In this document: piece by piece, positions 5,707 through 30,290 of the stretch
Layout: every line of letters starts with the position of its first letter
How positions within the stretch are numbered: the first letter of the stretch is position 1
NCBI GenBank assembly: GCA_036496605.1
Contig: DASXKV010000051.1
Span: forward strand, 1-64,000
Origin: Gemmatimonadaceae bacterium
GTDB lineage: Bacteria; Gemmatimonadota; Gemmatimonadetes; Gemmatimonadales; Gemmatimonadaceae
DNA: 64,000 nucleotides
Direction of reading: 5' to 3'
Program-made: the position numbers and the translations under genes
Notes under the pieces: generated by a model
Databases searched by the model: none
Told to the model about the DNA's origin: nothing
Seen by the model: only the letters and a program-made list of their open reading frames with translations

Positions 5707-6218
5707 GCACTCCGCCTCACGCGATTCGGGTTTCGTTTGAACGAGGGGCGGTGCGCTGCAAGCCACGTTTTTTGATCTGACGTTAGAACTTTCTGAATAT
5801 CTGCACCGAGCTGTTTGTTCGCCGTCATGAGACGTTGCCGAACCGGCGTGGTCTGCGCGAACATCGCGTGCCGTTGGTCGACACTCATGGATTGGCCCGC
5901 CACGCGCGCCGCGCGCATCTGCTTGCCGATCGCCGCCATCGATTGCAGGTCTTGCCGATGAGCCGAGCGATACGCCGTCACGAGCGCCTTGATCTGCGTC
6001 CGCTGCGCATCCGTCAACTGAAGATTCGCCGGCAGTCGCCGAGCGAACATGAAACCTCCGCCCATCATCCCGAATCCATGCCGGCCAAATCCCCATGGGC
6101 CCGGCGCGCCATTCGTGGCGCTGAGGAAATTATCCGGCGCCGGCACCGTCGGCGCCGTCACTTCATTGGCGCACGCCGCCACGGAACCGGCGACGAGCAG
6201 GAGCAGCATGTTCCTCAT
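5682..6218 (-). CDS. Spy/CpxP-like periplasmic lipoprotein with LTXXQ motif
   Basis: Probable lipid-anchored, helical periplasmic protein of 178 residues. The N-terminus MRNMLLLLVAGSVAAC ends in a lipobox cysteine at residue 16. A Gly/Met-rich stretch (GRHGFGMMGGG) leads into the LTXXQ motif LTDAQRTQIKAL, and a second LTSDQKTW motif lies near residue 150. This is the pattern of Spy/CpxP-type envelope-stress chaperones. A GGAGG ribosome site precedes the ATG. The last ~10 residues (ARAWRVEG) are encoded by the right arm of the iterated element, so the native C-terminus may have been extended. Metal or misfolded-protein binding is inferred from the family only. Confidence 0.75.
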   Translation of the reverse strand: MRNMLLLLVAGSVAACANEVTAPTVPAPDNFLSATNGAPGPWGFGRHGFGMMGGGFMFARRLPANLQLTDAQRTQIKALVTAYRSAHRQDLQSMAAIGKQMRAARVAGQSMSVDQRHAMFAQTTPVRQRLMTANKQLGADIQKVLTSDQKTWLAAHRPSFKRNPNRVRRSARAWRVEG

Positions 6219-6322
6219 GTCCTCATCCTCCGATGTGCACCGAGTCGAGTGCGTAAGACGGAGGCTATGAACAAATGTTAGCGTCGGCCAGTGGCTCGTA
6301 GCTGGTTCTTAGTGAATAATCA

Positions 6323-8095
6323 ATGTTACGAACCGCCGACCCAACGTTGATGCTCTCTCGGCTGTACAACCGCGCCACCGGAATGCCGATCTTGATCGGC
6401 CTTCTCGTGGTCACGTTTGCCATTGCGGCGGACCTCGCGCACGAGGCGTGGACCACGGGAGTTTCTCAGCAGCGAACCGCCGAGCGCGCCCTGCGCGATT
6501 TCGTGCGATTCTCCGCGACAAATACGGCATACCAGGCGCAAGCATCGATTGAGCTTGGAGTCCGAACCCTCCTCGGGCCGGTGGCGGCTCGCAGTGCTAG
6601 AGACAGGTCTCCCGCGGCCGAACTAGAAGCATTGGCGGAGAGTGCGGCCCGAATTGTTGAATGCCATTGCGCACCAGTCTTTCGGCCGACCTTCTATTTC
6701 CGTCTCGACCTAGCCTCCGCCGATCTGCGAATCAGCGGCGCCGCGTCTCCCTCGGACGCCGAGCGTCAATGGCTCCGCGACACGATTGCGGTCCACGCTC
6801 GTGCGGTGCGTCACCCTGATTGGGACGTGGCGCTCGTCTACGGCGGCGCAGGCTCGCGGCCCCGAGTCGTTGCATACAGCCTGCGCGGCCCCGCCGCGTA
6901 CGGCCTGGTGAGCGACGTCGGAGCCTTCGGCGACGCGGCCATCGCTCCGGTGGTCCGGACTCGCCCGCGCCCCGATGTCGAGCTCGGCCCGCACGCCGCC
7001 GGCTACGACTCGCTGATGAGAACTTTCATATTGGCCCCGGACGGTCATGCGGTGTACGACGCGAATCCCCGTCGGCCGGAGCTTCGCGTCACGATGGTAC
7101 CGGGCGCTGGACACGAATCGTATACGCCGGGCGCCGAGCCCCTGATCCCGACGACGCTGTTTGCCGATACGGTGCGGCTCGGGCCGCAGTTCGGCGATCT
7201 GCGGCTCGACGTCGCGCTCGCCACGAGTGATCCTGGCGCCCTCATCGCGGGAGGGCTCCCACGGTCGCGGCTCTTCGCGCTGCTCGGATTGCTGGTGTTG
7301 ATGGCTGGCCTCGTGGCCGTCGTCGTGTTGCAGCTCCGGCGCGAGCACGAGCTCGCGCGGCTGCGTGCCGATCTGACCGCCGGAGTGTCGCACGAGCTGC
7401 GCACGCCGCTGGCGCAGATTCTTCTGTTCGGCGAAACGCTGATGCTCGAACGCACGCGCTCGGAGCGCGAGCGCCGTGCGGCCGCCGAGGTGATCGTGCG
7501 CGAGGCGCGCCGGCTCATGCATCTCGTCGAGAATGCGCTGCACTTCACTCGCGCCGACCGCGAGCTCCTGCATCTCTCGCCCGAGTCGATCGATCTGGGT
7601 GAGGCAACGCGCGAGATTCTCGTCAGCTTCGCGCCGCTTGCGTGGACGGCGAAGGTGACGTTGCGCGAGATGATCGACGAATCCGCGACGGCACTTATCG
7701 ATGCCGCCGCCTATCGGCAGATCGTGCTCAACCTGCTGGAGAATGCGATTCGCTACGGGCCCGTTGGCCAGACGGTGACGGTGCGCGTTGAGGGTGTACC
7801 GGATGGCGCGCGCCTCGTCGTCGAGGATGAAGGGCCAGGCATTTCTACCGCCGATCGCGAGCGCGTGTGGGCGCCGTTCGTTCGCCTAACGAATCAGGCT
7901 CGCGGATCGATGGGCACGGGAATCGGTCTGGCGGTGGTCCGCGATCTCACCTCGCGCCACGGCGGCCGCGCCTGGATCGATCGTGCACCATCGGGTGGCG
8001 CTCGGTTCGTCGTCGAGCTTCCGTCGAGTGCGCGGGGCTTGCCGAAAAACTCGGGCCGCGAGGACTCTGTTGGCCCCGCCCACGCCGCACTCTGA
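6323..8095 (+). CDS. Membrane-bound sensor histidine kinase
   Basis: A 590-residue two-component sensor. Membrane segments at about residues 22-37 and 316-336 flank a ~280-residue periplasmic sensor domain that I do not recognise. The kinase core follows directly: phospho-acceptor His357 in SHELRTPLAQ, then the ATPase domain with NLLENAIRYG (N box), EDEGPGIS (G1) and GTGIGLAVV (G2). There is no receiver domain. An in-frame ATG nine codons in is an alternative start. The likely partner is the OmpR-type regulator 1.7 kb downstream, with an amino-acid permease between them, suggesting transporter-linked sensing. Confidence 0.92.
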   Translation: MLRTADPTLMLSRLYNRATGMPILIGLLVVTFAIAADLAHEAWTTGVSQQRTAERALRDFVRFSATNTAYQAQASIELGVRTLLGPVAARSARDRSPAAELEALAESAARIVECHCAPVFRPTFYFRLDLASADLRISGAASPSDAERQWLRDTIAVHARAVRHPDWDVALVYGGAGSRPRVVAYSLRGPAAYGLVSDVGAFGDAAIAPVVRTRPRPDVELGPHAAGYDSLMRTFILAPDGHAVYDANPRRPELRVTMVPGAGHESYTPGAEPLIPTTLFADTVRLGPQFGDLRLDVALATSDPGALIAGGLPRSRLFALLGLLVLMAGLVAVVVLQLRREHELARLRADLTAGVSHELRTPLAQILLFGETLMLERTRSERERRAAAEVIVREARRLMHLVENALHFTRADRELLHLSPESIDLGEATREILVSFAPLAWTAKVTLREMIDESATALIDAAAYRQIVLNLLENAIRYGPVGQTVTVRVEGVPDGARLVVEDEGPGISTADRERVWAPFVRLTNQARGSMGTGIGLAVVRDLTSRHGGRAWIDRAPSGGARFVVELPSSARGLPKNSGREDSVGPAHAAL

Positions 8096-19815: not shown

Positions 19816-21474
19816 ATGCGCCCAGTCTTGCTCGCCGTCGACGACGATCCTGAAGTTCTTCGCGCGGTCGACCGCGATCTGCGCCGCCGATATGCCGACC
19901 GCTACCGTGTCGTGCGCGCCGAGTCCGGCGCGTTCGCCATCGATGCGCTGCGCAAGTTCGAGGAGCGCGGCGATCCCATCGCGCTCGTGGTCGCCGATCA
20001 GCGCATGCCGGAGATGTCGGGCGTCGAGCTGCTCGAGCAGACGACCCGCCTCGTCCCCGACGCCAAACGTGTCCTCCTTACCGCCTACGCCGATACGGAC
20101 GCCGCCATCGACGCGATCAACAAGGCGCGGATACACAATTATCTCATGAAGCCGTGGGATCCGCCCGAGCAACAGCTCTATCCGTATCTCGACGAGCTGC
20201 TCGACGATTGGCAGTCTGGCTATCACGCCCCTTTCGAGGGGATCCGGGTCGTCGGCCATCGTTGGTCGCCCAAATCGCACGAGGTGCGCGACTTTCTCGG
20301 CCGCAACCTCGTCCCCTTCAAGTGGCTCGATCTCGATGCATCCACGGAAGCCCGCGACGCGTTGAGTAAATTTGCAACGCGGGAGACGCCGCCGCTGCTG
20401 CCGCTGGTGCTCTTTCCAGACGGCGCGGTGCTCGACGCCCCGGACTTCGCGACGCTCAGTGCCCGAATCGGCCTGCGAACTCGCGCCGAGAAGCCGTTCT
20501 ACGATCTGGTGTGCGTTGGCGGAGGTCCGGCTGGACTCGCTGCTGCGGTCTACGGCGCGTCGGAAGGGCTGCGCACGCTGCTCGTCGAGCGTGAAGCGCC
20601 TGGCGGTCAGGCGGGGACGAGCTCGCGAATCGAGAATTACCTCGGTTTCCCGAGCGGCCTCACCGGCGCCGACCTAACGAGACGGGCGGTCGCCCAGGCG
20701 CGAAAATTCGGCGCCGAGCTGCTGACGCCACAGGAAGCGTGTGGTCTGCGCATCGACGGCCAGTACCGCGTGCTCACGCTCTCCGACGGGTCCGAGGTCT
20801 CGACGCGCGCGCTCGTGATCGCGTCCGGCGTCTCCTATCGGACGCTCGACATTCCCGGCGCCGAGAAGTTGACTGGAGCAGGTGTGTACTACGGCGCGGC
20901 GCTCACCGAAGCCATCTCCTGCCAGGATGAGGAAGTACTCATCATCGGCGGCGGGAACTCGGCGGGCCAGGCGGCGCTCTTCTTCGCCCAATACGCGCGT
21001 CACGTGACGCTCGTCGTGCGTGGTGGCTCCCTGGGCGAGAGCATGTCACGGTATCTCGTCGATCAGGTAGAGTCCACTCCGAACGTCACGGTGCTCACAC
21101 GCACTCGAATCTCCGCGCTGCACGGTGACGATCGCTTGCGCTCGGTGACGCTCGCCTGCGACAGCGAGGAGCGCGATATGGAAGCGACGTCGCTGTTCGC
21201 ATTCATCGGTGCTCAGCCGCGCACCGAGTGGGTCGCCAGCGTGCTGCAGCGCGACGAGCATGGTTTCATACTGACGGGACCCGATCTGGCGCGGGAGAAT
21301 GGTCGACCGCACGGCTGGACGCTCGCGCGCGATCCGTTCTTGCTCGAGACCAACGTGGCGGGCGTCCTCTGCGCCGGCGACGTGCGTCATCAGTCGATCA
21401 AGAGATGCGCGTCGGCGATTGGCGAGGGCGCCATCGCCGTCCAGTTCACCCATCGCTACCTCGCCGAGGGCTGA
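19816..21474 (+). CDS. Receiver domain fused to glutaredoxin-like and thioredoxin-reductase-like FAD domains
   Basis: A 552-residue three-part protein. Residues 1-~125 form a response-regulator receiver (Asp10/Asp11, phospho-acceptor Asp61 in VVADQRMPEMSG, Lys112 in YLMKPW). Residues ~142-222 resemble a thioredoxin/glutaredoxin fold without a CxxC (GHRWSPKSHEVRDFL, LPLVLFPDGAVL). Residues ~228-552 form a thioredoxin-reductase-type FAD/NAD(P) module (GGGPAGLAAA at 235, GGGNSAGQAA at 378, closing CAGDVRHQSIKRCASAIGEG). Where true reductases carry CATC, the sequence reads GAAL, so the disulfide centre is gone. The kinase that likely phosphorylates it starts 1 nt after its stop. FAD-dependent output under phosphorylation control is inferred. 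Confidence 0.88.
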   Translation: MRPVLLAVDDDPEVLRAVDRDLRRRYADRYRVVRAESGAFAIDALRKFEERGDPIALVVADQRMPEMSGVELLEQTTRLVPDAKRVLLTAYADTDAAIDAINKARIHNYLMKPWDPPEQQLYPYLDELLDDWQSGYHAPFEGIRVVGHRWSPKSHEVRDFLGRNLVPFKWLDLDASTEARDALSKFATRETPPLLPLVLFPDGAVLDAPDFATLSARIGLRTRAEKPFYDLVCVGGGPAGLAAAVYGASEGLRTLLVEREAPGGQAGTSSRIENYLGFPSGLTGADLTRRAVAQARKFGAELLTPQEACGLRIDGQYRVLTLSDGSEVSTRALVIASGVSYRTLDIPGAEKLTGAGVYYGAALTEAISCQDEEVLIIGGGNSAGQAALFFAQYARHVTLVVRGGSLGESMSRYLVDQVESTPNVTVLTRTRISALHGDDRLRSVTLACDSEERDMEATSLFAFIGAQPRTEWVASVLQRDEHGFILTGPDLARENGRPHGWTLARDPFLLETNVAGVLCAGDVRHQSIKRCASAIGEGAIAVQFTHRYLAEG

Positions 21475-21475
21475 T

Positions 21476-22555
21476 ATGGGTGACGCAGCCGTCGGTACGC
21501 CTCCTGGCGAGGTCGAGACCACGCAACGTGAGCGCATGGCGACGCTCGGTACGCTCGCGGCCGGCTTGGCACACGAGCTGAATAACCCGGCGATCGCCAT
21601 CGGCCGCTCGGTCGATCTGCTGCGCACCGAGATCGCCGGCGTCGACCCCATTCTGCGACAGATCGCGAGCCATCCCTGGACCGAGGACGAGCTGCGCTTC
21701 CTCGCGCGGTTGGGTGCGACGACGGAACGGACACAGGGCCTAACGGCTCCCCTTGACGTTGTCGACCGCACCGATCGTGAGGAAATGCTCATCGATTGGC
21801 TCGCGCAGCACGAGGTGTCGACATCGCCGGATCTCGCCACAGTGCTCGTCGATCGCGGCGTGACACCGGACGAGCTGGCGGCGCTCGCGCGCGGCTGCAG
21901 TCCGAGCGTGATCAGTGACGCCATGGCGTGGCTGTCGCGGCTCACCCTCATCCGGCAACTGCTCGACGACGTTGCCCGGAGCGCCGCGCGCATCGGTGAG
22001 CTCGTGCGCGCCGTGAAGGGCCACGCCTACACCGATACCGGTCGTCGGCTCGTGGACGTGCACGAGTCGATCGAGAGCAGCCTCACGCTCATCAGCTACA
22101 AGCTCCGCGAATCCCGAGCAAAGCTCGCGCGTGAGTATGACCGCACGCTCCCGCCCATCGAGACCTACGGCACGGAGCTCAACCAGCTCTGGACGAATCT
22201 CCTCGATAACGCCGCCGACGCACTTTCGTCGATGCAAGGCGAGCGGACCATTTCCCTCCGAACGTCGCGCGACGAGGGAGGTGTGCGCATCGAGGTCGCC
22301 GACAGCGGGCCCGGAATCCCCGCCAACCTCGCGGCGAAGATCTTCGAGCCACACTTCACGACGAAGCCAGCCGGGAAGGGAACCGGCCTCGGACTCGACA
22401 TCGTTAGGCGCATCGTCGCGCACCACGGCGGCTCGATCACGTGTGAGTCGGATGCCAAAGGCGCCCGCTTCGTGGTTCGCATTCCCTTCGCGCAGCCACC
22501 CGCTGCCTCACCGAACTCGTCACCAGCTGCGCGTTTCGATGTTTCCAAACAATGA
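21476..22555 (+). CDS. Soluble histidine kinase
   Basis: A 359-residue cytosolic kinase with no membrane segment or recognisable N-terminal sensor. The phospho-acceptor His33 sits unusually early, in LAAGLAHELNNPAIAIGRS. A ~150-residue helical insertion follows before the second dimerisation helix (RIGELVRAVKGHAY). The ATPase domain is complete (WTNLLDNAADAL, VADSGPGIP, HFTTKPAGKGTGLGLDIVRRI). Kinases of this kind with fused-reductase receivers are a recurring pair. The ATG lies 1 nt after the preceding stop. The end overlaps the DsbA-like gene by 17 nt, indicating translational coupling. Confidence 0.9.
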   Translation: MGDAAVGTPPGEVETTQRERMATLGTLAAGLAHELNNPAIAIGRSVDLLRTEIAGVDPILRQIASHPWTEDELRFLARLGATTERTQGLTAPLDVVDRTDREEMLIDWLAQHEVSTSPDLATVLVDRGVTPDELAALARGCSPSVISDAMAWLSRLTLIRQLLDDVARSAARIGELVRAVKGHAYTDTGRRLVDVHESIESSLTLISYKLRESRAKLAREYDRTLPPIETYGTELNQLWTNLLDNAADALSSMQGERTISLRTSRDEGGVRIEVADSGPGIPANLAAKIFEPHFTTKPAGKGTGLGLDIVRRIVAHHGGSITCESDAKGARFVVRIPFAQPPAASPNSSPAARFDVSKQ

Positions 22556-23123
22556 CCTCCTGTTCGGCGGCCCGCCGCTCTCAGACCCCGTCGATGAAGC
22601 CGATCACATTCGCGGAGCCGCCTCGTCGCTCGTCACGCTCGTCGAGTATGCCGACTTCGAGTGCCTCAACTGCGCGCGCGCCTTTCCACTACTCGTTAGG
22701 TACCTCGAGGAATTTCGCGGTACGCTGCGCTTCGTCTTCCGGCACTATCCGCTGACCTGGGAGCATCCCGCGTCGTCGCTGGCCGCGCGCGCCGCGGAAG
22801 CCGCAGCACGACAGGGAAAGTTCTGGGAGATGCACGACGAGCTCCTTCGAAATCCGGGCATGCTGCACCGCGAAGCGCTCCACGCGCACGCCGCATCCGC
22901 CGGGCTGGACATCGTCGGCTTCGCAACTGACCTCGAGGACGAAAGCCTCATCGCCCGCATCGGGCGCGACGTCGCCAGCGGCGAGCGTAGCTCGGTTCGC
23001 GCGACACCCACATTCTTCATCGACGGCGCTCGCTTCGCGAACTCCAGAAACGTGGAAGGCTTGCGCGACGGCATCATGGAAGCGGCCATGCGCGCCACGA
23101 CCCGCTTGCTCGAGGAGCGGTAG
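22539..23123 (+). CDS. DsbA-family thioredoxin-fold protein
   Basis: A 194-residue thiol-disulfide protein. The active-site CxxC is Cys42-Leu-Asn-Cys45 in EYADFECLNCARAF. The cis-proline loop is RATPTFFIDG near residue 150. The helical insertion between them is typical of the DsbA/Thioredoxin_4 branch. There is no signal peptide in the chosen reading (MFPNNDLLFGG), so unlike classical DsbA it should be cytosolic. It overlaps the upstream histidine kinase by 17 nt, and with the receiver-reductase fusion it makes a redox signalling cluster. It could supply the cysteine pair the reductase-like protein lacks; that is speculation. Confidence 0.85.
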   Translation: MFPNNDLLFGGPPLSDPVDEADHIRGAASSLVTLVEYADFECLNCARAFPLLVRYLEEFRGTLRFVFRHYPLTWEHPASSLAARAAEAAARQGKFWEMHDELLRNPGMLHREALHAHAASAGLDIVGFATDLEDESLIARIGRDVASGERSSVRATPTFFIDGARFANSRNVEGLRDGIMEAAMRATTRLLEER

Positions 23124-23263
23124 CCACTTGTTCCCTTGTGGGCATTCGGCAGTCTCTATTGCGCTCGCGGCGTGGCGAGCCGATCTTCACCCCGCCGTTC
23201 CCTACCGTGCAGACGTCCCGCCTTCCCCGGCCGTCGTTGTTCCCGCCACCAGCAACGCTCCCT

Positions 23264-25015
23264 ATGTCCCACCTTCCCGTGGAGCGAGAGACCGAAAATA
23301 TTCGGTCGCCCACGGACGCGCTCGCTGTCACCCCGGTAAGCATCAGCGAGGCACGCTATCGAACCCTCATCCAGGCGATCTCACAGATCGTCTGGACGCG
23401 ATCGCCATTCGGCGAGTTTGTCGACCGGCAGGTGGCTTGGGAGGAGTTCACGGGTCAGTCGCCTGACGAATACCTCGGCTGGGGATGGCTCGATGTCGTC
23501 CATGACGAGGACCGACTCCGTGTGAAGCAAAACTGGCGGCGCGCCGTCGAAGCGGCATCCCCGTACTACGCCGAGTACCGCCTGCGTTCACGCGATGGTG
23601 TCCATCGCTGGGTGGCCGTGCGCGCGGCACCCGTGCGTGAGGCCGACGGTACCGTGCGCGAGTGGATCGGCACTCACAGCGATATCGACGCGGCGAAGCG
23701 GGCCCACGAAGAGCGCGCGCGGCTCTTCGAGTCCGAGCGTCATGCGCGCCTCGCCGCCGAACGGGCGATGAATCGCCTGCGGTCCGCGTGGAGTGTCGCC
23801 GACGCGGCGAGCGCGGAGGCGAGCCTCGACGACATGCTCTGGACGCTCTCGGAAGGCTTGCGCGTTGCCCTCCAGGCAGACGAGGCGACCGTCCTGCTGC
23901 TCGACGTCGAGACCTCGGAGCTCGTCGTCAGAGCCTCTGTCGGGATCGAGCGCGATGCGTCGCAGGAGACGCGCATTCGGCTCGGTGAAGGATTCGCGGG
24001 ACGCGTCGCCTTGGCGCGTTCGCCGGTCGTCGTGCCGGAGACCATGGCGCTTGACGAACGGAGCACCTTCCTTCGCGAGCGCTTGACGTCGGTGATCGGT
24101 GCGCCGGTTCGCGCGTCCGGGCGCCTCGTTGGCGTCATCCACGCGGGAACGGTCGAAGCGCGCGAGTTCAACGAAGAAGACGTCATCCTGCTGCAGCTCG
24201 TCGCCGATCGCGTTGCACATGCCATCGAGCGCGCGCGTCTGCTCGACGCTGAGCGCGTCGCGCGCGCCGACGCCGAGCTCGCGAATCGAGCGAAGATGGA
24301 ATTTCTCGCGATGATCTCTCACGAGCTGCGTACGCCCCTCAATGCCATCGCCGGCTACGCCGAGCTGCTGGCGATCGGTTTGCGCGGCCCGCTCAGCGAG
24401 ACGCAGCTCGCCGACGTCCACGCCATTCAACGCAACGAGCGACATCTCCTCTCGTTGATTGAGGAAGTGCTCACCTTTGCGAAGATCGACGCGGGACGAA
24501 TTCGGATCGAGCCAGAGGATGTTCGCGTGTCGGCAGCACTCGCGTCGATGAGTGACCTCATCGCTCCGCAGATGGAGCAGAAACAGCTCGACTACGAGCT
24601 CGAGCCGTGCGACTCGTCGCTGGCTGTGTATGCCGACGTCGAGAAGCTGCAGCAGGTCGTCCTCAACCTGCTCTCCAATGCGGTCAAGTTCACACCGGCT
24701 GGCGGCCGTATCGTCGTTGGCGCGTCCGCGCACGCGAACGATGACAATCTCGTCGAGATCCGCGTGCGCGACACGGGAATTGGGATCCCAGTCGATAAGC
24801 TCGAAGCGATCTTCCAGCCATTCGTTCAACTCGACGGCGGCTTGACGCGAGCATCTCAGGGCACGGGCCTCGGCCTCGCCATCAGCCGGGACCTCGCGCG
24901 TGCAATGCAGGGCGATCTCGTCGTCTACAGCGAGGCAGGCGAAGGGGCCGAGTTCGTTCTCACGCTTCCACGTGGCGAGCTGCTTCGCACTCGCGGAGTG
25001 TCCCAACAGACTTGA
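23264..25015 (+). CDS. PAS-GAF hybrid-input histidine kinase
   Basis: A soluble sensor kinase of 583 residues from the chosen ATG (an in-frame start 126 nt upstream would add a Pro-rich extension). Order: PAS domain (~25-145, RYRTLIQAISQIVWTR to EWIGTHSDIDAAKR), short coiled coil, GAF domain (~175-325), then the kinase core with His353 in MISHELRTPLNA, NLLSNAVKFTPAGG, RDTGIGIP and GTGLGLAIS. There is no receiver domain. Ligands for PAS and GAF cannot be assigned; the GAF domain has no obvious haem or chromophore cysteine. It follows the DsbA-like gene by 140 nt on the same strand. Confidence 0.9.
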   Translation: MSHLPVERETENIRSPTDALAVTPVSISEARYRTLIQAISQIVWTRSPFGEFVDRQVAWEEFTGQSPDEYLGWGWLDVVHDEDRLRVKQNWRRAVEAASPYYAEYRLRSRDGVHRWVAVRAAPVREADGTVREWIGTHSDIDAAKRAHEERARLFESERHARLAAERAMNRLRSAWSVADAASAEASLDDMLWTLSEGLRVALQADEATVLLLDVETSELVVRASVGIERDASQETRIRLGEGFAGRVALARSPVVVPETMALDERSTFLRERLTSVIGAPVRASGRLVGVIHAGTVEAREFNEEDVILLQLVADRVAHAIERARLLDAERVARADAELANRAKMEFLAMISHELRTPLNAIAGYAELLAIGLRGPLSETQLADVHAIQRNERHLLSLIEEVLTFAKIDAGRIRIEPEDVRVSAALASMSDLIAPQMEQKQLDYELEPCDSSLAVYADVEKLQQVVLNLLSNAVKFTPAGGRIVVGASAHANDDNLVEIRVRDTGIGIPVDKLEAIFQPFVQLDGGLTRASQGTGLGLAISRDLARAMQGDLVVYSEAGEGAEFVLTLPRGELLRTRGVSQQT

Positions 25016-27844: not shown

Positions 27845-30076
27845 TCAGATACCCAGTTGCAAAGTTACGAATACATTCCGCGGCGGCAGCACGTAGTAGT
27901 ACGGCGTATTACCGCTGCCATAGCCGCTTCCGTATCGCTTCGAGTTCGTGAGATTGTTGCCACGAATCTCGAGCGCTTGCCGCCCCGCGAAATGCCACTT
28001 GGCCGATGCGTCGACGACGTACGCCGCGGGCAGCACGAGATCGGGATTGGCCGTGTCGTCGAGCTGCGACTGACCCGTGTAGCGCCCCTCGGCCCAGAAC
28101 GACAAGGCGCGGGGCGCGTCCCACGCGATGCGTTGCGCCGTGACGACGCTCGGGGTCAGCAGCGGCGCCACGTCGTGGAACGACTCACCCGACGAGTCGT
28201 CGGTGTAATCGGCGATGCGCGCGCGCATGAGCGTGGCGTTCAAGGAGGCTTTCAGCGAAGCCGTTAGGCGGTAGCTCGCATCGAGCTCCACGCCGCGCCG
28301 ATAGCTCGCGTGGACATTCTTGCGTAGCGGAAGACCTTGATAGCTCAGCGCGCCGATCGGCTCGATCTCATTGCGAAAGTCCATCGAGAACACGTTGGCC
28401 TGCAGGTGCGCCGAGGCCGTCGAGAGCGTCACACCGGTTTCGACATCGTGCACCGTTTCCGGCTTCACGCGCGAGAAATCGCCCACGAACGCGACGTTCG
28501 ATGTGTCGAGGTTGTCGAATCCGGCGAACATGTCGAGTCGCGCCGGCTCTCGACTCGTCGCACCGTAGGACGCGTATGCGGAGAACGCGGTCGTTAGGCG
28601 ATAGGTGAGGCCGGCCCGCGGATTCACGAATGTCCAGGAGATCGAGCGCTCGGGTATGTCCGCGTGGACGTCCGGCACATACCGAAATCCCGCCTGCCGC
28701 GCCTGCAGATCGCCGAACAGCGTCGCCCGACCCACGTCGTACGACACCTTGGCGAAGCCACTCGCATCATCCTTGTGGCCGGTATTGAAGTAGATGTCAT
28801 CAACCAGATCCGGCCGGATGAAGGCATAGTGATCCCGCGCATAACGATTCGCGTTGACGCCGACGTTCACGCGCACGCGGTCGCGTTGCCACGTCCATGC
28901 ACTCGTCACTCCGTACCAGACGAAGTCGAGATGATAGTTCCACAGATCGGGATCGATGGCGACGTCGTAATTGCCGCTCGCCGAAATGCGGTAGAGTGTC
29001 GTCGACAGCGAGGCGTCGCCGAACAACCGTGTGTAGGCCGCCGAGACGAGCTGCTCTCCGAACCGATCCAATTCGTCCGGCTGCAATGGATTGATGCGCC
29101 GGTCGTGAGCGAGATCCGTATCAGGGACCGCCAGATAGCTCAGCGTGTCGTGCAGCAACCCGGCCGTCGCCATCACTTTCACGACGTCGTGCGCGCCGAA
29201 GTATCCCGCGCTCACGAGCCCCGAGCGGCCGAGCACTCCGGAGTGATACCGATAGCCGTTGGACTGCAGATCGGAGAGCCGGCCGTAAAAGGCAAGTCCG
29301 TTGCCGAGGAGACCCGAGCGATACTCGGCACTCGCGCGCTTGGATCCGAAGGAGCCGCCCTCGAGCTGGAGTTGCGTTTCCTCTGGACCGGCGATGGGCG
29401 CTGTCTCGAAATTCATCGAGCCGGCGAACGATGCCGTTCCAGCGCTGCTCGTCCCAACGCCACGCTGGATCTCCACCGACTCGAGGCTGCTCGCGAGATC
29501 CGGAAAATCCGCGAAGTAGAGCACCTGATCTTCGGGATCGTTCAGCGGAATGCCGTCGATCGTTAGGTTGATGCGCGATTGATCGATGCCTCGCAATCGT
29601 GTGTAGCTGTAGCCCCAGTAATTTCCCGTCTCGGCATACGACGTGACCGAAGGCGTGCCCTGCAGGAGCAACGGTACCTCCTGGCCGAACGACCGCTGCG
29701 CGATCTCGTCACGCGTCAGCGTTCGCTGCGACACCGGCGCCGCCTCATCCGCCGAGCCGCCGCGGAGCGCAGTGACGGTGACGCCTTCGAGTGCGCGCGG
29801 CGACGTGGCGAGCGCAAGGATGACGTTCGATGACGAGACGACGATCTCGCGCGTCGCGTAGCCAACGCGCGACAATCGGAGCCGCGCAGGGAGCTCGGCG
29901 TCGAGCGCGAAATGCCCGGCGCTGTCGCTCAGCGCTTGTCGACGTGACACGACATCCATCACCACGACACTCGCCACGGGCGCGTGCGTCGCGGAATCGT
30001 GAATCACACCGGCGACGCGCGGCTGTTGTTGGAGGACTGCCGATGCAAGAGACAGGAGGAATAGTGGCGCGTTCAT
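27845..30076 (-). CDS. TonB-dependent receptor under TPP riboswitch control (probable thiamine-compound uptake)
   Basis: Outer-membrane barrel of 743 residues from the chosen ATG, which has a GAGGA ribosome site and begins a signal peptide (MNAPLFLLSLASAV). An upstream in-frame GTG at 30139 would add 21 residues unlike a leader. A carboxypeptidase-like domain is followed by the plug (YTRLRGIDQSRINLTIDGIPL, VEIQRGVGTSSAGTASFAGSM) and a barrel ending NVFVTLQLGI. The leader RNA holds a TPP riboswitch, so the cargo is most likely thiamine, its phosphate or a precursor. It is first in an operon with the GH15 gene. Confidence 0.9.
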   Translation of the reverse strand: MNAPLFLLSLASAVLQQQPRVAGVIHDSATHAPVASVVVMDVVSRRQALSDSAGHFALDAELPARLRLSRVGYATREIVVSSSNVILALATSPRALEGVTVTALRGGSADEAAPVSQRTLTRDEIAQRSFGQEVPLLLQGTPSVTSYAETGNYWGYSYTRLRGIDQSRINLTIDGIPLNDPEDQVLYFADFPDLASSLESVEIQRGVGTSSAGTASFAGSMNFETAPIAGPEETQLQLEGGSFGSKRASAEYRSGLLGNGLAFYGRLSDLQSNGYRYHSGVLGRSGLVSAGYFGAHDVVKVMATAGLLHDTLSYLAVPDTDLAHDRRINPLQPDELDRFGEQLVSAAYTRLFGDASLSTTLYRISASGNYDVAIDPDLWNYHLDFVWYGVTSAWTWQRDRVRVNVGVNANRYARDHYAFIRPDLVDDIYFNTGHKDDASGFAKVSYDVGRATLFGDLQARQAGFRYVPDVHADIPERSISWTFVNPRAGLTYRLTTAFSAYASYGATSREPARLDMFAGFDNLDTSNVAFVGDFSRVKPETVHDVETGVTLSTASAHLQANVFSMDFRNEIEPIGALSYQGLPLRKNVHASYRRGVELDASYRLTASLKASLNATLMRARIADYTDDSSGESFHDVAPLLTPSVVTAQRIAWDAPRALSFWAEGRYTGQSQLDDTANPDLVLPAAYVVDASAKWHFAGRQALEIRGNNLTNSKRYGSGYGSGNTPYYYVLPPRNVFVTLQLGI

Positions 30077-30150
30077 GGACGTGTCCTCGGCGAGACACGT
30101 CGCGCACGGGCGCCCGCCATCGGGGCGATCGAACGACACGACATTTGTGT

Positions 30151-30238
30151 GACTCCCTACGCCGGTGCGAACCGGATCAGGTTCAACGGGACTCTCTCAG
30201 CCGGCGCCCTTAGTGGCGGCGGCACCCCGGTCAGTGTC
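30151..30238 (-). promoter_or_regulatory. TPP riboswitch (THI element)
   Basis: Read on the minus strand, the leader contains the conserved THI blocks in order: GGGGTGCC, then GGCTGAGA, then GAACCTGATCCGGTT, then GCACCGGCGTAGGGAGT. These form the P2/P3 arm and the P4/P5 arm that bind thiamine pyrophosphate. It ends 75 nt before the ATG of the TonB receptor, room for control of translation start. High TPP should lower expression of the receptor and the genes behind it. Confidence 0.93.
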
Positions 30239-30290
30239 GCAATCTATGTCGTCGAATTCTCAGGTGCCATCGACAAGCCGCGCGCGGCTG

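Follow-up and report, generated by a model that had tools for sequence, protein, structure and literature searches.

The window, by which we mean the whole 64-kb stretch of DNA that was analysed, carries four closely spaced genes on its forward strand (Table 1): a receiver-flavoprotein fusion, which is present as a single copy in its genome, a histidine kinase, a DsbA-like protein and a second histidine kinase with PAS and GAF domains. All four are present where the original prediction, made from the sequence alone, had placed them, and the tight packing that it described is correct: the ATG of the first kinase gene comes 1 nt past the stop codon of the fusion and the ATG of the DsbA-like gene (22539) sits 17 nt within the kinase gene. 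Elsewhere in the window, a TPP riboswitch (RF00059, 63.9 bits, 30137-30239, minus strand) is found where ORF 27845-30139 begins on the same strand; this ORF has the appearance of a TonB-dependent receptor and probably serves thiamin uptake; a tRNA search of the 64 kb found none.

Table 1. Features of the receiver-flavoprotein locus (positions are those of the window)
Feature	Position	Strand	Basis
Receiver-glutaredoxin-like-thioredoxin-reductase-like fusion, 552 aa	19816..21474	+	Pfam; 80 relatives, nearly all full length
Receiver domain, residues 6-118 (D9, D10, D61, T89, K112)	19831..20169	+	PF00072, 54.7 bits
Glutaredoxin-like domain (putative), about residues 143-222, SPKS for CPxC	20242..20481	+	Trx-fold-like helix/strand order in model
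Thioredoxin-reductase-like FAD/NAD(P) module, residues 228-552	20497..21471	+	PF07992, 119.2 bits (Pyr_redox_2, 229-538)
GAAL (residues 360-363) where a CATC redox centre would lie	20893..20904	+	Gly at 360 in 81/81, no Cys at 363
Histidine kinase (359 aa) lacking the family's N-terminal cyclic-nucleotide-binding domain (cNBD); candidate phospho-acceptor H33	21476..22555	+	HATPase_c, 90.6 bits
Insert of ~88 residues (55-142) between two long dimerisation helices	21638..21901	+	AlphaFold2 secondary structure
DsbA-like/Thioredoxin_4 protein, 194 aa, CLNC at residues 42-45 (22662-22673)	22539..23123	+	Thioredoxin_4, 83.0 bits (cut-off 23.2)
PAS-GAF-HisKA-HATPase kinase, ATG 23264 or alternative GTG 23138	23264..25015	+	Pfam PAS_3, GAF_2, HisKA, HATPase_c

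A scan of a genome collection identified 80 relatives of the fusion with 47-85% identity from many phyla, resulting in an alignment of 81 sequences. The receiver and the FAD/NAD(P) motifs, both described as intact in the original prediction, are indeed so: in addition to the Pfam matches, the acidic pocket, phospho-acceptor aspartate, threonine and lysine of the receiver are near-invariant, each being kept in 68-80 of the 81 homologues, and the motif residues for FAD and NAD(P) (G235, G237, G240, G378, N381, R402, G521, D522) are invariant. Searches with the reductase module, by sequence as well as by fold, recovered solved thioredoxin reductases. Low-Mr thioredoxin reductases and AhpF share the FAD/NAD(P) fold of the fusion, and AhpF also has an N-terminal Trx-fold domain joined to its reductase; these enzymes work by CxxC relays, whereas the fusion lacks both CxxC motifs. 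Of the hallmarks of a low-Mr thioredoxin-disulfide reductase, the fold and the cofactor motifs are present, the CxxC is missing and the score against TIGR01292 (207.9 bits) stays under the curated cut-off of 343.45. The segment in front of the reductase module has no Pfam match of its own and we infer its glutaredoxin-like family name from the structure model.

The position of GAAL was set by alignment to the canonical reductase of the same genome, which has CAIC there. The replacement of CATC by GAAL is genuine in the fusion, and the loss of these cysteines is conserved in relatives across phyla, a point that had been proposed for checking. The CPxC of the glutaredoxin-like domain is gone too (columns 151 and 154), and 70 of the 81 sequences have serine in place of its first cysteine. 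Gene decay can be ruled out as the source of the loss, since the glycine at position 360 is invariant, and this invariance is far beyond chance. Compensating cysteines can be ruled out as well. The only semi-conserved cysteine of the fusion is C369 (51/81, elsewhere mostly Tyr or Phe), three of the fusions (L015, from Devosia sp. Root413D1, L018 and L082) are entirely free of cysteine and ten have a single one; conserved cysteines elsewhere in the protein, which the original prediction had considered as a possible substitute, were therefore not found, and a disulfide mechanism common to the whole family is excluded by the same counts.

The AlphaFold2 model of the fusion has a mean pLDDT of 91 and a pTM of 0.74, and because of the latter the placement of the domains is uncertain. 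The reductase module fits the thioredoxin reductase of L. lactis in the FR conformation (5mh4) with a TM-score of 0.92 by target at 2.6 A and the FO conformation of the same enzyme (5mjk) more poorly, with 0.64 at 7.1 A; among the close structural matches, this comparison of conformations covers 5mh4 and 5mjk. The better FR fit would suit an enzyme that never exposes a dithiol, and is weak evidence for it. The disappearance of the cysteine pairs from both the reductase and the glutaredoxin-like domain could also mean that the reductase module is dead and, with no catalysis of its own, serves as a scaffold or dimerisation platform under the control of phosphorylation, but the invariance of the FAD and NAD(P) motif residues across phyla exceeds what a scaffold would need and makes this distinctly unlikely.

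Thioredoxin-reductase-like ferredoxin/flavodoxin-NADP+ oxidoreductases are not known to have a CxxC. According to the passages available from PMC10294844 and PMC10526003, the FAD of these enzymes hands its electrons on to a partner protein, and they would thus be a precedent for the fold of the fusion operating without dithiol chemistry. In the sequence search of solved structures their match to the fusion is weaker (8.8e-18 for 5xhu, compared to 3e-43 for the best thioredoxin reductase) and, unlike the fusion, they have neither a receiver nor a glutaredoxin-like domain.

The fusion has a partner. In 65 of the 80 relatives, across many phyla, a kinase of one family is encoded next to it and in the same orientation; in seven further relatives the kinase is elsewhere in the locus, in five it was not found at short flanks and in three it is absent despite full flanks. 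As in response regulators with an enzyme-like output, an intact receiver is combined with an adjoining cognate kinase. Among 54 scanned kinases, which include the window kinase, those of both congeners and one orphan paralogue, the H-box histidine (H33) is invariant and 48 have a cNMP_binding domain (Pfam; cNBD in the following). A crude pattern recognises a canonical-like phosphate-binding motif of this domain in no more than 15 of 70 kinases, that of L034 among them, and the ligand of the domain may therefore not be a cyclic nucleotide. The window kinase has the H-box histidine, the catalytic ATPase domain and the hairpin insert of the partner family and lacks the N-terminal cNBD: together with the two congener kinases, it starts only ~32 residues ahead of the H-box histidine. 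The cNBD has been lost from the partner kinase in the genus of the window, an observation from three genomes only, as the five congener loci collapse into G299 (L009, L122, L138) and G298 (L027, L121). Another kinase of this family is encoded elsewhere in the genome of the window (L136, ORF 5855-7339; G000:C18:145016-146314); it has a cNBD with the variant motif GVIPFSR, is solitary, with no receiver-flavoprotein neighbour, and could restore the lost cNBD input in trans. In a relative from the archaeal Candidatus Kariarchaeota (L058, 5976-7832) the partner kinase has an additional C-terminal CoA_binding_2 domain.

In the AlphaFold2 model of the window kinase (mean pLDDT 88), two long helices (10-54 and 143-184) are separated by five short ones, and the HisKA profile covers only its first half on this protein. 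Half-match and helix layout would both fit an insert within the dimerisation hairpin. The helical insert is conserved in the kinase family and has no Pfam family of its own.

The remaining two genes of the locus have a much narrower distribution. The DsbA-like protein has both the profile match and the CxxC of the DsbA/Thioredoxin_4 family; the CxxC is as originally described, and the lack of a signal peptide is a judgement made by eye only. Its gene is found downstream of the pair in both congeners, with CLNC kept, and the PAS-GAF kinase gene has the same position in G299 and also in G298, where it is clipped by the contig end. Neither gene lies beside the pair in any relative outside the genus of the window (three genomes), so that conservation of gene order, which was to be checked, holds for fusion and kinase and not for the DsbA-like and PAS-GAF genes. 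Outside the genus, the DsbA-like protein can be rejected as a conserved partner, the sole other match near a fusion (L013) being ~4 kb off. Thioredoxin genes can be rejected as conserved neighbours of the receiver form too: they are near only 2 of the 81 fusions, on the opposite strand and ~2 kb away. No conserved acceptor gene was found near the fusions of the 80 relatives. On plasmids, the DsbA-like protein has its nearest relatives in domains annotated inside NhaA antiporters and haloarchaeal formate/nitrite transporters.

These distributions bear on the reading offered originally, in which phosphorylation gates the flow of electrons from FAD to the adjoining DsbA-like CLNC protein. The overlap of its gene with the kinase gene and the retention of gene order and CLNC in both congeners speak for such an acceptor, but comparative support is missing, since the gene adjoins the pair in this genus alone and the core occurs without it across phyla, cysteine-free members included; moreover, it would be unusual for a flavin to reduce a disulfide with no dithiol relay in between. 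We regard this reading as very unlikely. The PAS-GAF kinase, suggested as a second input, is equally unsupported in that role, since it follows the pair only in the three genomes of this genus.

Outside the genus, a zf-UBP zinc finger is the recurrent third gene: 17 loci have it close to the fusion, frequently directly upstream of the fusion or downstream of the kinase, and the genome of the window has a single zf-UBP gene, located elsewhere (C6). The same gene is also found beside sister proteins of the fusion, namely those with a cNBD on Streptomyces and Rhodococcus plasmids and one without any N-terminal domain on a Burkholderia plasmid.

The cNBD sisters carry this domain in place of the receiver on the same glutaredoxin-like and reductase-like module. 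On direct reading of the sequences by eye, their N-termini look cNBD-like, in agreement with the plasmid annotation of some. The reductase cysteines are missing in these sisters and in those without any N-terminal domain too. A quick tree of 94 modules places the cNBD forms among the receiver forms and requires two origins, of which the strongly supported branches force one only; backbone support is modest. In databases, such proteins appear as 'cyclic nucleotide-binding domain-containing thioredoxin-disulfide reductase', often beside zf-UBP; they resemble the fusion in module and cysteine loss and differ from it in the cNBD and in that no partner kinase is annotated in the Streptomyces and Rhodococcus plasmid stretches. 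Despite the annotated name, none of the sisters examined has the cysteines that such a reaction requires. On the two plasmids (L125, 773-6302; L128, 872-6239) the cNBD sister is preceded by DnaJ-like, cbpM, clpB, trxA and zf-UBP genes. This chaperone-redox cluster may give a clue to the acceptor.

The signalling system with an enzymatic output that had originally been proposed is supported as far as fusion and kinase are concerned: together they form a two-component system that is conserved and whose output resembles a flavoenzyme. With a probability of roughly 0.6, this output is a flavoprotein that depends on NAD(P)H and does without dithiol chemistry; its activity, acceptor and control by phosphorylation we infer. 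The cytosolic histidine kinase would transfer phosphate onto D61 of the receiver, as the conserved residues and the gene pairing suggest, and phosphorylation may then alter the state of a flavoprotein that has kept the thioredoxin reductase fold, is predicted from its motifs to bind NAD(P)H and FAD and, having lost the cysteines, is incapable of dithiol-disulfide exchange. Electrons from NAD(P)H would pass to FAD, from which a non-thiol acceptor or else a partner protein would take them up directly, candidates being oxygen, a quinone, ferredoxin or flavodoxin. In the genus of the window, where the cNBD is gone, the DsbA-like protein and the PAS-GAF kinase may, speculatively, supply a new input.

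The direction of signalling could also be the reverse. If the flavoprotein were a redox sensor, its FAD, reduced by NAD(P)H, would report the NAD(P)H/NAD(P)+ ratio and set receiver phosphorylation or kinase activity, which would agree with the lack of both a conserved acceptor gene and a DNA-binding output in the system and with the loss of dithiol chemistry while the cofactor motifs remain. However, a receiver is usually the target of a signal and not its source, the kinase family already has a sensor domain of its own in the cNBD, and in the sister branch the cNBD is directly on the flavoprotein and looks like an input to it; a sensor role is therefore unlikely. To return to the flavoprotein as output, the cNBD is present on most kinases and, in the sisters, on the flavoprotein itself, so that phosphorylation of the receiver and binding of a ligand appear to be exchangeable ways to control it. 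It is possible, though we propose it only tentatively, that receiver phosphorylation, or ligand binding to the cNBD of the sisters, acts as a direct switch for a cysteine-free flavoenzyme that uses NAD(P)H, and that such proteins are a widespread class of signalling outputs that connect two-component and possibly cyclic-nucleotide signalling to cellular redox chemistry without transcription.

Fusions of a receiver with a thioredoxin-reductase-like module, the architecture also seen in the window, have been mentioned before (PMC5847659) and this architecture counts as known. The passages available from that paper mention neither cysteines nor a glutaredoxin-like domain or a cNBD kinase, and the window adds to the system described there a kinase that lost its cNBD; in the library that was searched, neither the cysteine loss nor the pairing with a cNBD kinase was found to be described. 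Fusion and kinase are a widespread signalling system across phyla and not a broken gene. Lacking the cysteines, this family, which is conserved in many phyla and has a kinase of its own, would carry out a reaction other than the annotated thiol chemistry, and the cysteine-free members open the thiol question to direct testing. If phosphorylation gates the fusion, two-component signalling would be coupled to redox metabolism directly, with no transcriptional step in between.
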